Origin: Collinsella tanakaei
Lineage (GTDB): Bacteria; Actinomycetota; Coriobacteriia; Coriobacteriales; Coriobacteriaceae
Direction: 5' to 3'
Assembly (NCBI RefSeq): GCF_030373545.1
Contig: NZ_JAUDCO010000003.1
Span: 62,001-126,000, forward strand
Length of the DNA: 64,000 nt
Positions 4,085 through 45,207 of the stretch are shown here, piece after piece (positions within the stretch are counted from its first letter, which is position 1; the number at the start of each line of letters is the position of its first letter). The notes beneath the pieces are model-generated. The model was not told where the DNA came from. It did not search any database and was given only the letters and a program-made list of their open reading frames with translations. The translations under genes were made by a program, and so were the position numbers.

Positions 4085-5026
4085 CTACTCCTTGGGGGTG
4101 ACGTTGCCCTCGGCGTCCTTGACGACGGTCATCGAGGACACGGGGATGAAGCCCTGCTCCTCCACGAGGGAGCCCTGAACGGCGTCGGAGAGCATGTACT
4201 CGAGGAAGGCCGTGGTGGCCTCGTCGGCGTCGTTCTTGCAGTACATGTGCTCGGTCGCCCAGATGGGGAAGTCGTTGGTGGCGACGTTCTCGCTCGTCGG
4301 CTCGACGCCGTTGACCTTGATGGCCTTGAACTTGGTGTCGTCGAAGTGCGAGAAGTCGAGGTAGGAGATCGCGTTGTCGGTGGAGCCGATCTGGGTCACG
4401 ACGTCGCCGGACTTGTCGAGCTCAGCCTCGCCCTTGAAGGTGGACTCGGGCTGGCCAGCGCCGAAGACGGCGGCCTCGAAGGTGGCGCGGGTGCCGGAGC
4501 CGGACTTGCGGTTCATGACGTAGATGGCCGCATCCTCGCCGCCGACCTCGGACCAGTTGGTGATCTCGCCGGAGAAGATGCCCTTGAGCTGCTCGAGGGT
4601 CAGGTCCTCGACGGTGACGTTCATGGAGACGACCGGACCCATGCCCACGACGGCGACCTCGTGGTCGACGAGGTCGGCGCACTGCTCGGCCTCGAGCTTG
4701 GTCTCAGCGAAGACGTCGGAGTTGCCGATGGTGACGGTGCCGTCGGCGACAGCGGTCAGGCCCGTGCCCGAACCGTTGCCGGAGCCGGTGATGGAGACGT
4801 CGGTGTTCTCGCTCATGAACTGCTCGGCGGCAGCCTCGACGAGGGCCTGGAAGGAAGAGGCGCCATCGTAGGTGACGGTGCCGACGAGCGAGGAGCCCTC
4901 AGCGGCAGCGGAGCCGGCGGTCGTGGTGCCGCCACCGCCGCAACCAGCGAGACCGAGGCCCGCAACGGCAGCGAGGCCACCGGCGAGACCGAGGAACTGA
5001 CGACGAGAGCAAGCGTAGTCGAACAT
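4085..5026 (-). CDS. pstS: Phosphate-binding lipoprotein PstS
   Basis: The protein (313 aa) is the extracellular phosphate receptor of the Pst system. The N-terminus holds a twin-arginine motif (SRRQFLG, Arg 8-9), a hydrophobic stretch and a lipobox LAGC with the lipidated Cys at 29, so it looks like a Tat-exported lipoprotein. The mature part has the PstS phosphate-site segments SSFQ near the start, GSGNGSGTG in the middle and RKSGSGTR. It is the first gene of the operon; the promoter region carries a Pho-box-like direct repeat at 5193-5209. Most PstS proteins use the Sec route, so the Tat-like signal is worth noting. Confidence 0.96.
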   Translation of the reverse strand: MFDYACSRRQFLGLAGGLAAVAGLGLAGCGGGGTTTAGSAAAEGSSLVGTVTYDGASSFQALVEAAAEQFMSENTDVSITGSGNGSGTGLTAVADGTVTIGNSDVFAETKLEAEQCADLVDHEVAVVGMGPVVSMNVTVEDLTLEQLKGIFSGEITNWSEVGGEDAAIYVMNRKSGSGTRATFEAAVFGAGQPESTFKGEAELDKSGDVVTQIGSTDNAISYLDFSHFDDTKFKAIKVNGVEPTSENVATNDFPIWATEHMYCKNDADEATTAFLEYMLSDAVQGSLVEEQGFIPVSSMTVVKDAEGNVTPKE

Positions 5027-5192: not shown

Positions 5193-5209
5193 CTTACAGC
5201 CTCCTTACA
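5193..5209 (-). promoter_or_regulatory. Pho-box-like direct repeat upstream of pstS
   Basis: CTTACA occurs twice with an 11-bp period (5193-5198 and 5204-5209), about 170 bases before the pstS start. Direct hexamers spaced 11 bp are the pattern recognised by PhoP/PhoB response regulators (TTAACA-type in Gram-positives). The -10 that would go with it is not certain; TAATGCT on the minus strand at 5169-5175 is one candidate. Confidence 0.5.
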
Positions 5210-5277: not shown

Positions 5278-5316
5278 GCCGGGGATGCGGGCCGGGGATG
5301 CGGGCCGGGGATGCGG
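5278..5316. repeat. Three perfect 13-bp tandem repeats
   Basis: GCCGGGGATGCGG is repeated three times without change at 5278-5290, 5291-5303 and 5304-5316, running straight into the left arm of the long hairpin. Degenerate GGGGATG words recur in inverted orientation to the right of the hairpin (about 5407-5465). Confidence 0.9.
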
Positions 5317-5413
5317 GGATGTAATTTCACCCTAGGGATTTTGTTGCATTGGGCTGGGCAAACCCAGCCCAATGCAACAAAATCCCTAGGGTGAAATTAC
5401 ATCCCGGCATCCC
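5308..5413. repeat. Very long perfect stem-loop between dipeptidase and pst operon
   Basis: Positions 5316-5358 and 5363-5405 are perfectly complementary over 43 bp around a CAAA loop. After one mismatch the pairing continues for seven more bp (5308-5314 with 5407-5413), a stem of 51 positions. Each arm contains the words CCCTAGGG, ATTTTGTTGCATTGGG and GTAATTTCACC. The region lies between the dipeptidase terminator and the Pho-box-like site and codes for nothing. Such exact pairing is far beyond a normal terminator. Confidence 0.95.
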
Positions 5414-5484
5414 AAGCAAGTCGCCCATCCCCACATCCCCCGAGCGAGTCGTACGTCCCCGCCCCTAGAGTAAGTCGCATAAGC

Positions 5485-5520
5485 AAAAGGGGCGTGCCGC
5501 TTCACGTGTGGCACGCCCCC
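5485..5520 (-). terminator. Rho-independent terminator of the dipeptidase gene
   Basis: A 10-bp stem (GGGGCGTGCC / GGCACGCCCC, 5489-5498 with 5510-5519) is followed on the minus strand by TTTTGCTT. It sits 31 bases past the stop codon. Confidence 0.85.
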
Positions 5521-5550: not shown

Positions 5551-6963
5551 CTACAGGTCGACATCCATCAAACGCACGATGGACAGGATGTAGATCTTCA
5601 GTGCCTCCTTGAGCAGCGCCTCGTTTGCGCACTCGTTGGGTCCGTGCATGGGACCGCCCCACGCCGGGAGCTCAAGGCCGTTGTCCTCCGGTCCGAACGA
5701 GACGGCGCGCGCGAAGTTGCGCGCATACGTGCCGCCGCCCATCGAGATCGGATAGGCGGGCTTGCCGGTGACCTCGTGGTAGGTGGACAGCAGCGTCTGC
5801 ACAGCAGGATGGTCGGCCGAAATCGAGAACGGCACCTTGTCGTGGTCGACGGTCAGCTGCGCGCCGAAGCGCTCCGCAACCTCGCGGCAGGTGCGCTCGA
5901 GCACCTCGGCCGACGTGCTGTCGGGGAAGCGGACATCGATCGTCTGGCGGATACGGCCGTCCGCGACCTCGACGGTGCCGCCGTTGAGCGTCAGCGGGCC
6001 AAACGCCGGGCTCTCGCTCGCGATGCCCAGCCCCTCCCCCGCCGTGTCGGCATGAATGATCGCCATGAGGTCGAGAAACGGCTTCTCCGACACAGCCGCC
6101 AGGTCGGCCTCGCGCAGGTAGCCCAAAATGAGGGCGATAGCGTTGATGGTGCCCTCCGGCAGCGAGGCATGTCCGCCGATGCCGTGTGCGACGATGCGGG
6201 TCTTCCCAGGAGCTGCGGCTTCGAGCGTCAGCCTCTCGGCGTTGGCGACCGGCGCCGGGCAGTCGGCGATGTCCACGGCGATCTCGCAGATGGACTCGGC
6301 GGGAATAGCGTTGGTCGCCTCGGCTCCGCTCCAGGACAGGATGCGGCCGCCCTCGATCGGCGCGCTCGTGAAGGTCGCGCCGAACTGGCCCTTCTCGGCG
6401 TTGCCCAGCGGGAACTCGGCATCGGGCGTAAACAGGAAGGCGGGGTCATCGTGGCCGTCCAGATAATGGTGGACATCGGTCATGCCCACCTCCTCGTCGC
6501 AGCCGATCAGCGCGCGGAACGTGTAGCGCAGTTGAGCGCCCAGGCGCTTGAGGAAGGCGCCCGCGTACAGGGCGAGCACAGCCGGGCCCTTGTCGTCGAT
6601 GACGCCGCGGCCGAGCAGCCAGCCCTCGCGACGGGTGCAGGCGAAGGGATCGGTGTTCCAACCGGGACCCGCCGGGACGACGTCCACATGGGCGATCGTG
6701 GCGATCTGCGTCTCGGAAGCGCCGGGGATGTCGGCGATGCCCACATAGCCCTCGTCATCGCTCACCTCATACCCGAGCTTCGCCGCGATGCCGAGCGCGC
6801 AGTCGAGTGCTTCGCGCACGGGCGCACCGAACGGCGAGCCGGGCGTACCCGTCGACGAGTCGGCGACCGAGGGGTGGCCCACCAGCTCGGCGATGTCGGC
6901 GACGACGTCCTCCCAGACCTCGTCGACATAGGCGTCGACCTGGGTTTCGAGTGTCTTGTCCAT
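5551..6963 (-). CDS. M20 family dipeptidase (PepV/Sapep-like)
   Basis: The 470-residue protein is a cytoplasmic two-metal dipeptidase of the M20/ArgE family. It shows the first metal motif AHVDVVPAGPGW (His 92, Asp 94), GRGVIDDKGP with the bridging Asp at about 113, and CDEEVGM with the catalytic Glu pair. Size and the inserted lid domain match Sapep/PepV dipeptidases, which release amino acids from short peptides. The start at 6963 was chosen because GGAG lies five bases upstream; an in-frame ATG at 6993 has no such site. The gene ends in a clear terminator. It follows the HAD gene by 36 bases and may be co-transcribed with it. Confidence 0.9.
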   Translation of the reverse strand: MDKTLETQVDAYVDEVWEDVVADIAELVGHPSVADSSTGTPGSPFGAPVREALDCALGIAAKLGYEVSDDEGYVGIADIPGASETQIATIAHVDVVPAGPGWNTDPFACTRREGWLLGRGVIDDKGPAVLALYAGAFLKRLGAQLRYTFRALIGCDEEVGMTDVHHYLDGHDDPAFLFTPDAEFPLGNAEKGQFGATFTSAPIEGGRILSWSGAEATNAIPAESICEIAVDIADCPAPVANAERLTLEAAAPGKTRIVAHGIGGHASLPEGTINAIALILGYLREADLAAVSEKPFLDLMAIIHADTAGEGLGIASESPAFGPLTLNGGTVEVADGRIRQTIDVRFPDSTSAEVLERTCREVAERFGAQLTVDHDKVPFSISADHPAVQTLLSTYHEVTGKPAYPISMGGGTYARNFARAVSFGPEDNGLELPAWGGPMHGPNECANEALLKEALKIYILSIVRLMDVDL

Positions 6964-6999
6964 AGCTACTCCTTTACCTGGATTCGAGGGCATATCAAT

Positions 7000-31971: not shown

Positions 31972-32097
31972 TGGGTCATTTGGGGACGTGTTCCTTCCAA
32001 CCCATCGCGTTTGGGTCATTTGGGGACGTGTTCCATCCAACCCATCTTGCCCGGCGCCCCCGCATGGGCCATTTGGGGACGTGTTCGTTTCAACCCA
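31972..32097 (+). repeat. Palindromic element family 1, three tandem copies
   Basis: Copies of 33 bp lie at 31972-32004, 32012-32044 and 32065-32097, each reading TGGGTCATT (or TGGGCCATT) then TGGGGACGTGTTC and ending CAACCCA. They are in the opposite orientation to the two copies at 1180-1248. The spacers differ (GCGTT-type and a GC-rich 20-mer). A short frame can be read through them, but it only follows the repeat. Confidence 0.88.
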
Positions 32098-45156: not shown

Positions 45157-45207
45157 AAGAGCGCCCGCCCTCATTGTCCATCCGGGACAATGAGGGCGGG
45201 CGCTCTT
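45157..45207. terminator. Bidirectional terminator between GH3 and nfo genes
   Basis: A perfect 23-bp stem (45157-45179 with 45185-45207) and a five-base loop lie between two convergent genes, 13 bases after one stop and 18 bases before the other. Confidence 0.92.

Follow-up and report, generated by a model that had tools for sequence, protein, structure and literature searches.

A long hairpin beside the pst genes of Collinsella tanakaei belongs to a dispersed family that shares its repeat with a RAYT-like transposase gene

Results

The hairpin and its neighborhood

We analyzed a stretch of 64,000 nucleotides from Collinsella tanakaei (the window), in which a long hairpin occupies positions 5308-5413 (no strand assigned). 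The hairpin is intergenic, and the two genes that flank it, both on the minus strand, lie outside the element: a PstS-type phosphate-binding protein gene (4085-5026, with its start at 5026; PBP_like_2, 2.8e-35) and an M20-family peptidase gene (5551-6993, with its end at 5551; Peptidase_M20, 6.1e-22). About 100 bp from the hairpin is a single CTTACA-N5-CTTACA direct repeat (5193-5209, unstranded), which is present too in the pst gap of relatives and fits the Pho-box-like site that the original prediction placed on this side. The terminator that it placed on the other side, likely that of the peptidase gene (about 5485-5519, minus strand), was recognized by eye, and the terminator scan gave no listing there. 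The hairpin is between transcription units, and we claim no function for it in the pst operon.

The left arm spans 5308-5358, the CAAA loop 5359-5362 and the right arm 5363-5413. The stem has 51 positions, 50 of them paired: 43 unbroken pairs run outward from the 4-nt loop (5316-5358 with its inverted copy 5363-5405, both given on the plus strand), and a single G-G mismatch at 5315/5406 is followed by seven further pairs, exactly as had been predicted. The three exact 13-bp tandem repeats predicted on the left are also there (5278-5317, plus strand; 3.1 exact copies of the unit GCCGGGGATGCGG), and the last of them ends inside the base of the left arm. Inverted words in the two flanks, another part of the prediction, stood up less well; wider arms of 78 nt each (5281-5440) are 85% complementary, a weak signal that is chiefly owing to the stem itself. 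Each arm contains a REP-like motif of 31 nt, at 5319-5349 on the plus strand, with its core CCCTAGGG at 5330-5337, and again, inverted, at 5372-5402 on the minus strand.

No perfect arm in the window exceeds the 43 positions of this hairpin, and the longest elsewhere in it has 23; when the window was simulated 30 times with an order-1 Markov model, the longest arm came to 9 to 12. Folded as RNA, the hairpin reaches about -150 kcal/mol, with a z-score of about -13, on both strands. The sequence has no T-run after the stem, and no Rfam family scored above its gathering threshold in the hairpin region; the only sub-threshold matches were microRNA models, an identity that we dismissed because any long stem would have this effect.

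A dispersed family of near-perfect stems

At least 25 long hairpins in the host genome share the core CACCCTAGGGA. A search pattern that required the core in each arm matched at 25 places, each on both strands, and its reversed control at none. Our set of 25 counted hairpins is made up of 24 of these places plus one hairpin with a variant core (L020 at 144), the remaining pattern place, at the start of contig C15 (L033), having been left out. Because the pattern demands this core in each arm, it under-counts decayed copies. When the 181-base region was used as a query against the host genome, at least 74 matches were found with E up to 1, and 40 of the 47 candidate places were scored, so that these counts are a minimum.

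Pairing within the family is almost complete. Among 1223 stem positions, 1218 are Watson-Crick pairs, two are G-T and three are of other kinds, and 21 of the 25 hairpins have no mismatch at all. The core is constant, while the tips and outer stems vary among copies yet still pair. Nineteen copies have the same length; 99.6% of their 741 cells are paired, against 82.6% in shuffles, and 109 cells hold a double change, where shuffles give 27.8 and sliding the partners gives no more than 25. Because pairing was also what defined the stem ends, the outermost pairs could not be other than paired. The longest stem in the host measures 71 bp (L051). None of the 25 hairpins overlaps a predicted gene, and they lie between tandem (12), convergent (7) or divergent (2) genes or at contig edges (4), by a crude gene model trained on nine genes of the window.

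Instability is expected of long perfect palindromes in bacteria, yet this host holds dozens of them. The original prediction argued that such palindromes are rare because SbcCD-like nucleases delete them, an argument that does not carry over to this genus. In 43 Collinsella genomes, the SbcD model TIGR00619 never matched above its cut-off, and in 41 of them, the host included, it had no match whatever; 8 of 14 control genomes passed. SbcD is equally missing in two single-contig Collinsella genomes, G038 and G002, from each of which we sampled ten stretches of 20 kb. These 400 kb held no long hairpins: G038 had two hairpins of 26-27 positions and G002 had none. The absence of SbcD may therefore permit long hairpins, but it does not cause them. 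The same samples indicate that the hairpins are not a genus-wide trait and that RAYTs of this type are not always accompanied by them.

The motif is shared with a Y1/HuH transposase gene

The same 31-nt motif also occurs alone. Eight lone copies, with the sequence ATGTAAAATnACCCTAGGGATTTTTTTACAT or nearly so, were read in the host, and a relative, G041, has one lone motif (L208). The host has in addition one inverted pair of motifs with an unpaired spacer. The motif, ATGTAAAA..CCCTAGGG..TTTTACAT, is built as a double dyad, and the ten copies outside long hairpins (eight lone, two of the loose pair) are near identical; over the 15 positions compared, their self-complementarity is 11-12, against 6-9 in the hairpin arms. 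At L049 (about 2000-2050) and L046, lone motifs shortly precede the apparent starts of genes other than RAYT-A, and they might act on neighboring promoters.

One lone motif, ATGTAAAATAACCCTAGGGATTTTTTTACAT on contig C12, ends 11 nt upstream of the start of a gene that we call RAYT-A, and the inverted pair lies 2 kb from the same gene. RAYT-A encodes a Y1/HuH transposase of 252 amino acids with a PF01797 domain and the HuH and Y...NP motifs; it scores 68.8 bits against the NCBIfam model REP_Tyr_transpos, under the cut-off of 80. Within the 6 kb read around it, the motif flanking the gene was found upstream only. The arms of the pst-locus hairpin are thus repeated across the genome and match a repeat beside a transposase gene, in agreement with the suggestion that the structure is the hairpin form of a small mobile element. 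The feet of the repeat read ATGT, GCGT, GGGT and similar; the GTAG/GTGG tetranucleotide is absent from the foot, and the motif GGGGWSAS is absent from the RAYT-A repeat, which has CCCTAGGG.

The host has two Y1 genes besides RAYT-A, and the 31-nt motif was not found at either locus with up to 11 mismatches allowed. One of them, RAYT-B on contig C3, has a repeat of its own, GGGTTGnnTGGGGACGTGTTCC.. The core of the repeat beside RAYT-B (L066) is GGGGACGTGTTCC, of which the window holds five copies, one with a mismatch, at 1190-1238 and 31982-32087, where shuffles expect 0.07.

We aligned 21 Collinsella proteins of this kind. PF01797 is present in 21 of 21, residues H60, H62, Y119, N123 and P124 are invariant, and a C-terminal extension of about 110 residues carries a conserved motif. 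Profiles of helix-turn-helix domains matched the C-terminal part of some of them (HTH_23 in 5 of 21, HTH_28 in 2 of 21; E up to 0.1, best 3e-5), and RAYT-A itself had no HTH match in the profile search.

Distribution in Collinsella and at the pst gap

Of 43 Collinsella genomes, 37 have relatives of RAYT-A and two match the exact CCCTAGGG hairpin pattern (25 matches in the host, six in G036 and none in G041). The only match to this pattern among the genomes of named species was an uncultured Collinsella bin, and a stricter hairpin pattern matched one of 197 genomes of the order. A version with CCCCAGGGG instead matched three of 42 genomes, 19 times in G041 and once each in the host and G036. 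Nearly all hairpin cores of G041 are of this second kind, and they resemble the repeat that flanks the G041 orthologue of RAYT-A (74%), which has ATGTAAAATAACCCCTGGGGTTATTTTACAT-type repeats on both sides. The CCCCAGGGG matches of the host (L211 1441-1640, G000:C20) and G036, together with one of those in G041, are a single orthologous inverted pair (L209, L210, L211), which has an unpaired spacer and the same place in three genomes, unlike the switched hairpins. Repeats beside several other Collinsella RAYTs differ from one another and are all palindromic, and some of them do contain GGGGWSAS, for example GGGGACAG at L141 and L146.

The pst gap was read through in eight species: the host, G041, G014, G030, G020, G040, G037 and G016. 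Five of the eight have a hairpin there with arms of at least 35 bp, and in four of these five the hairpin repeat matches a repeat beside a RAYT of the same genome. The host and G041 hairpins carry the repeat found beside RAYT-A and beside its orthologue, respectively, and that of G030 is present on both sides of a RAYT. The G020 hairpin is perfect over 84 bp and nests two RAYT repeats concentrically, the outer like those beside one RAYT (L140) and the inner like the four around another (L141). The G014 hairpin had no match in the flanks of the one RAYT found in that genome. In G036, the contig stops at the hairpin base. The proposal that the element acts as a barrier or as a source of double-stranded RNA for the pst genes finds no support: it is situated between transcription units, and neither its place nor its sequence in the pst gap is conserved among Collinsella.

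Paired changes between hairpins of the same gap

At 13 sites, a host hairpin has a counterpart in the same gap of G041, with flanks 76-97% identical. The search covered the flanks of 21 hairpins and of the pst hairpin; the counterpart of L024 was read separately, and L034 and L044 lay outside it. At one further host site G041 has the lone motif (L029/L208), and at another it has no hairpin (L062/L190); the remaining host hairpins had no established counterpart in G041. Two host hairpins 3.7 kb apart (L030, at 1988 and 5715) face one hairpin in G041 (L222), and the DNA between them is missing in G041, as would be seen after recombination between hairpins or an insertion.

Five of the 13 pairs, picked for similar arms, could be aligned position by position. 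Their 209 pair positions comprise 185 that are unchanged, 23 changed on both sides and one changed on one side, and none of 20000 simulations each of independent change at 5, 10 and 15% reached 23 double changes and one single; this simulation is a bare null, and selection on pairing is another route to the same result. The host and G041 pst hairpins are likely, though not certainly, orthologous, and their distance to the Pho-box-like repeat differs; without this pair, the census gives 15 double and no single changes in 169 pairs. The clearest pair, L024/L228, shows one difference in 43 pairs, from T-A to C-G. The tips of L022 and L236 are identical apart from an inverted loop. The other same-gap pairs have a wholly different tip or outer stem, and those at L028, L030, L035, L038, L039, L045 and L047 stayed outside the census for this reason, while the G041 partner of L020 is cut off by a contig end. 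One hairpin of G036 has several mismatches.

Gain, loss and growth

At the site of L035, G036 has a clean empty site, with 104 bp absent and one GCGC left. Because G041 has a hairpin at this site, loss is no less likely here than gain. The 71-bp stem is accompanied by a tandem array of 34-37-bp units on its left side only; the last unit forms the outer left arm, and the right side has a single inverted copy. Copies of the outer arm were found in the adjacent flank of 6 of 16 testable hairpins, which does not bear out a general origin of outer arms as inverted copies of native flanking DNA. Flank copies, a one-sided array and an inverted loop are the signs that template switching would be expected to leave. 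The nested repeats of the G020 pst hairpin led us to consider that an element might insert into the loop of a hairpin already present. As a general route, this was rejected, since the empty site of G036 retains just GCGC, with no sign of an older palindrome; for the G020 hairpin, it may apply.

A family member is found no more than about 410 bp from seven contig ends of the host, and contigs of both the host and G036 often end at such hairpins. Positions 1-47 of L025 and 2029-2081 of L026, at the end of contig C9 and the start of C11, resemble two halves of one further hairpin, and it looks as if the assembly broke inside it. At the start of a G036 contig (L187 1-214, G036:C24), an arm of 105 positions has 12 mismatches and is perhaps a fold-back chimera of the assembly of this bin.

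Discussion

A small mobile element whose two arms are kept matched is the most likely identity of the pst-locus hairpin. We think it probable that it is a REPIN-like element of a TIRYT-type RAYT, RAYT-A, with arms kept identical by DNA copying. The hairpins form a dispersed family with essentially perfect stems, they have their repeat in common with RAYT-A, and their paired positions change together between species. The element would consist of two inverted 31-nt repeats cognate to RAYT-A, which is encoded elsewhere in the genome; RAYT-A may recognize the hairpin as single-stranded DNA, on the lagging strand, and spread or replace its copies. During replication or repair, one arm could serve as the template for the other through template switching at the hairpin, and this would keep the arms identical and sometimes lengthen the stem. 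Both the action of RAYT-A and the choice of copying over selection as the source of arm likeness are our inferences from sequence comparison. Several points weigh against this reading: the G036 empty site could be a precise loss, strong selection on pairing would also yield paired changes, RAYT-A has the motif on one side alone in the 6 kb read, the G014 pst hairpin resembles no flank of the RAYT found there, decayed copies are under-counted, G036 has a hairpin with mismatches, and RAYTs of this type can occur without long hairpins.

The 31-nt motif could instead be the operator of a DNA-binding protein, perhaps the C-terminal domain of RAYT-A or a nucleoid protein, with the hairpins as double sites maintained by selection for binding. 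In favor of this, the motif forms a double dyad, its ten non-hairpin copies, in contrast to decaying REP singlets, are self-complementary and nearly alike, one of them sits just upstream of the RAYT-A start, and the sites follow the RAYT-flank sequence from species to species. An operator, however, leaves unexplained the perfect pairing of the tip and of outer stems that are specific to each locus, and the arms of the doublets are less self-complementary than the lone copies. We consider this explanation unlikely.

Another proposal is that the hairpins work as RNA, as terminators, mRNA stabilizers or double-stranded RNA sources, and that selection on RNA pairing keeps the stems. This would suit the very stable fold on both strands, the location of all 25 hairpins outside predicted genes, many of them 3' of genes (7 convergent, 12 tandem), and the paired changes throughout. 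However, RNA tolerates G-U pairs, and only 2 of 1223 stem positions are G-T; outer stem and tip are replaced wholesale between hairpins of the same gap; and the pst-locus element has no T-run after its stem, has no Rfam family over the gathering score and sits between transcription units. A role as RNA seems to us quite improbable. That the hairpin is a local inverted duplication of pst-upstream DNA with no link to a transposase is very improbable: the tandem repeats at the stem base and the outer arms that appear copied from the flank suggest the recent inverted duplication of the original prediction for at most the outermost part of some stems, but the inner 40 pairs belong to a family of at least 25 copies linked to a transposase gene, which rules it out for the inner stem. 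An assembly or library artefact is hardly credible; contigs do often end at these hairpins, and the G036 contig end with its mismatched arm looks like a fold-back, but hairpins also lie inside long contigs and in the same gaps of several independent assemblies of other species, with species-specific paired differences.

If the hairpin is indeed a REPIN-like element, it is a variant and not a member of the known REP or TIR repeats, since GTAG and GGGGWSAS are both absent from the RAYT-A repeat; its stems are also unusually long and perfect. A close likeness is to the TIRYT/TIRtron system of Di Nocera and co-workers 2013 (PMC3733652), which describes TIR repeats, single or dimeric, around TIRYT genes, and of PMC6006769, where it is TnpA-Y1 subclass 2.1. 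Shared with it are a Y1/HuH transposase of about 250 amino acids, extended at its C-terminus by a part that resembles an HTH in several members though not in RAYT-A, long inverted repeats at the gene (on both sides of the G041 orthologue, upstream only in the 6 kb read around RAYT-A), the dispersal of repeats as singles and inverted dimers, and GGGGWSAS in some Collinsella repeats. In contrast, the RAYT-A repeat has no GGGGWSAS, and here the stems are essentially perfect over 39-84 bp, with arms that change in concert between species. According to PMC6006769, automatic and manual searches in the vicinity of subclass 2.1 genes gave no REP-like sequences. Published RAYTs of the TIRYT kind are without REP-like partners, and Collinsella offers species that pair a RAYT, its repeat and hairpins.

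As described by Bertels and Rainey 2011 (PMC3116915), REPINs are likewise intergenic, dispersed hairpins of two inverted REPs, with a cognate RAYT that carries the same REP at its gene. Unlike REPINs, the Collinsella elements lack the GTAG/GTGG tag, the spacer between the REPs is a perfect palindrome, the stem extends past the REPs, and lone copies are well preserved and not decaying; further background on REPINs and RAYTs is given in PMC2817692, PMC8049555 and PMC8266576. MITEs resemble the hairpins in being short, non-coding, dispersed and transposase-linked, with inverted termini. They differ in two respects: no pattern of target-site duplication is established here, the one empty site showing a 4-bp GCGC that is itself palindromic, and the partner is a HuH enzyme, whereas most studied MITEs use DDE transposases, according to PMC2817692. 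Template switching has been described for RNA stems and RNA genes by Monttinen and Loytynoja 2022 (PMC8794818). The hairpins described there share perfect stems, multi-base paired changes and inverted loops with ours, which are dispersed, transposase-linked DNA repeats and not RNA genes. A literature search, with most subscription papers outside its reach, found no publication on Collinsella hairpins, REPs or RAYTs.

Pairs of orthologous hairpins allow one to ask whether selection or DNA copying maintains arm identity, which is a standing question for REPINs and for stem evolution in general. The difference between the CCCTAGGG and CCCCAGGGG cores raises a further, more doubtful possibility, that all hairpins of a genome are rewritten in place once the RAYT repeat changes. 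In hairpins of the same gap, both arms would have switched while some tips were kept, by arm-to-arm copying through RAYT action or through template switching at RAYT-made nicks. If so, the element would be a self-correcting palindrome that tracks its transposase. The other perfect hairpin of the window, with a stem of 23 bp at 45157-45207, has A-rich 5' and T-rich 3' ends and is probably an ordinary bidirectional terminator.
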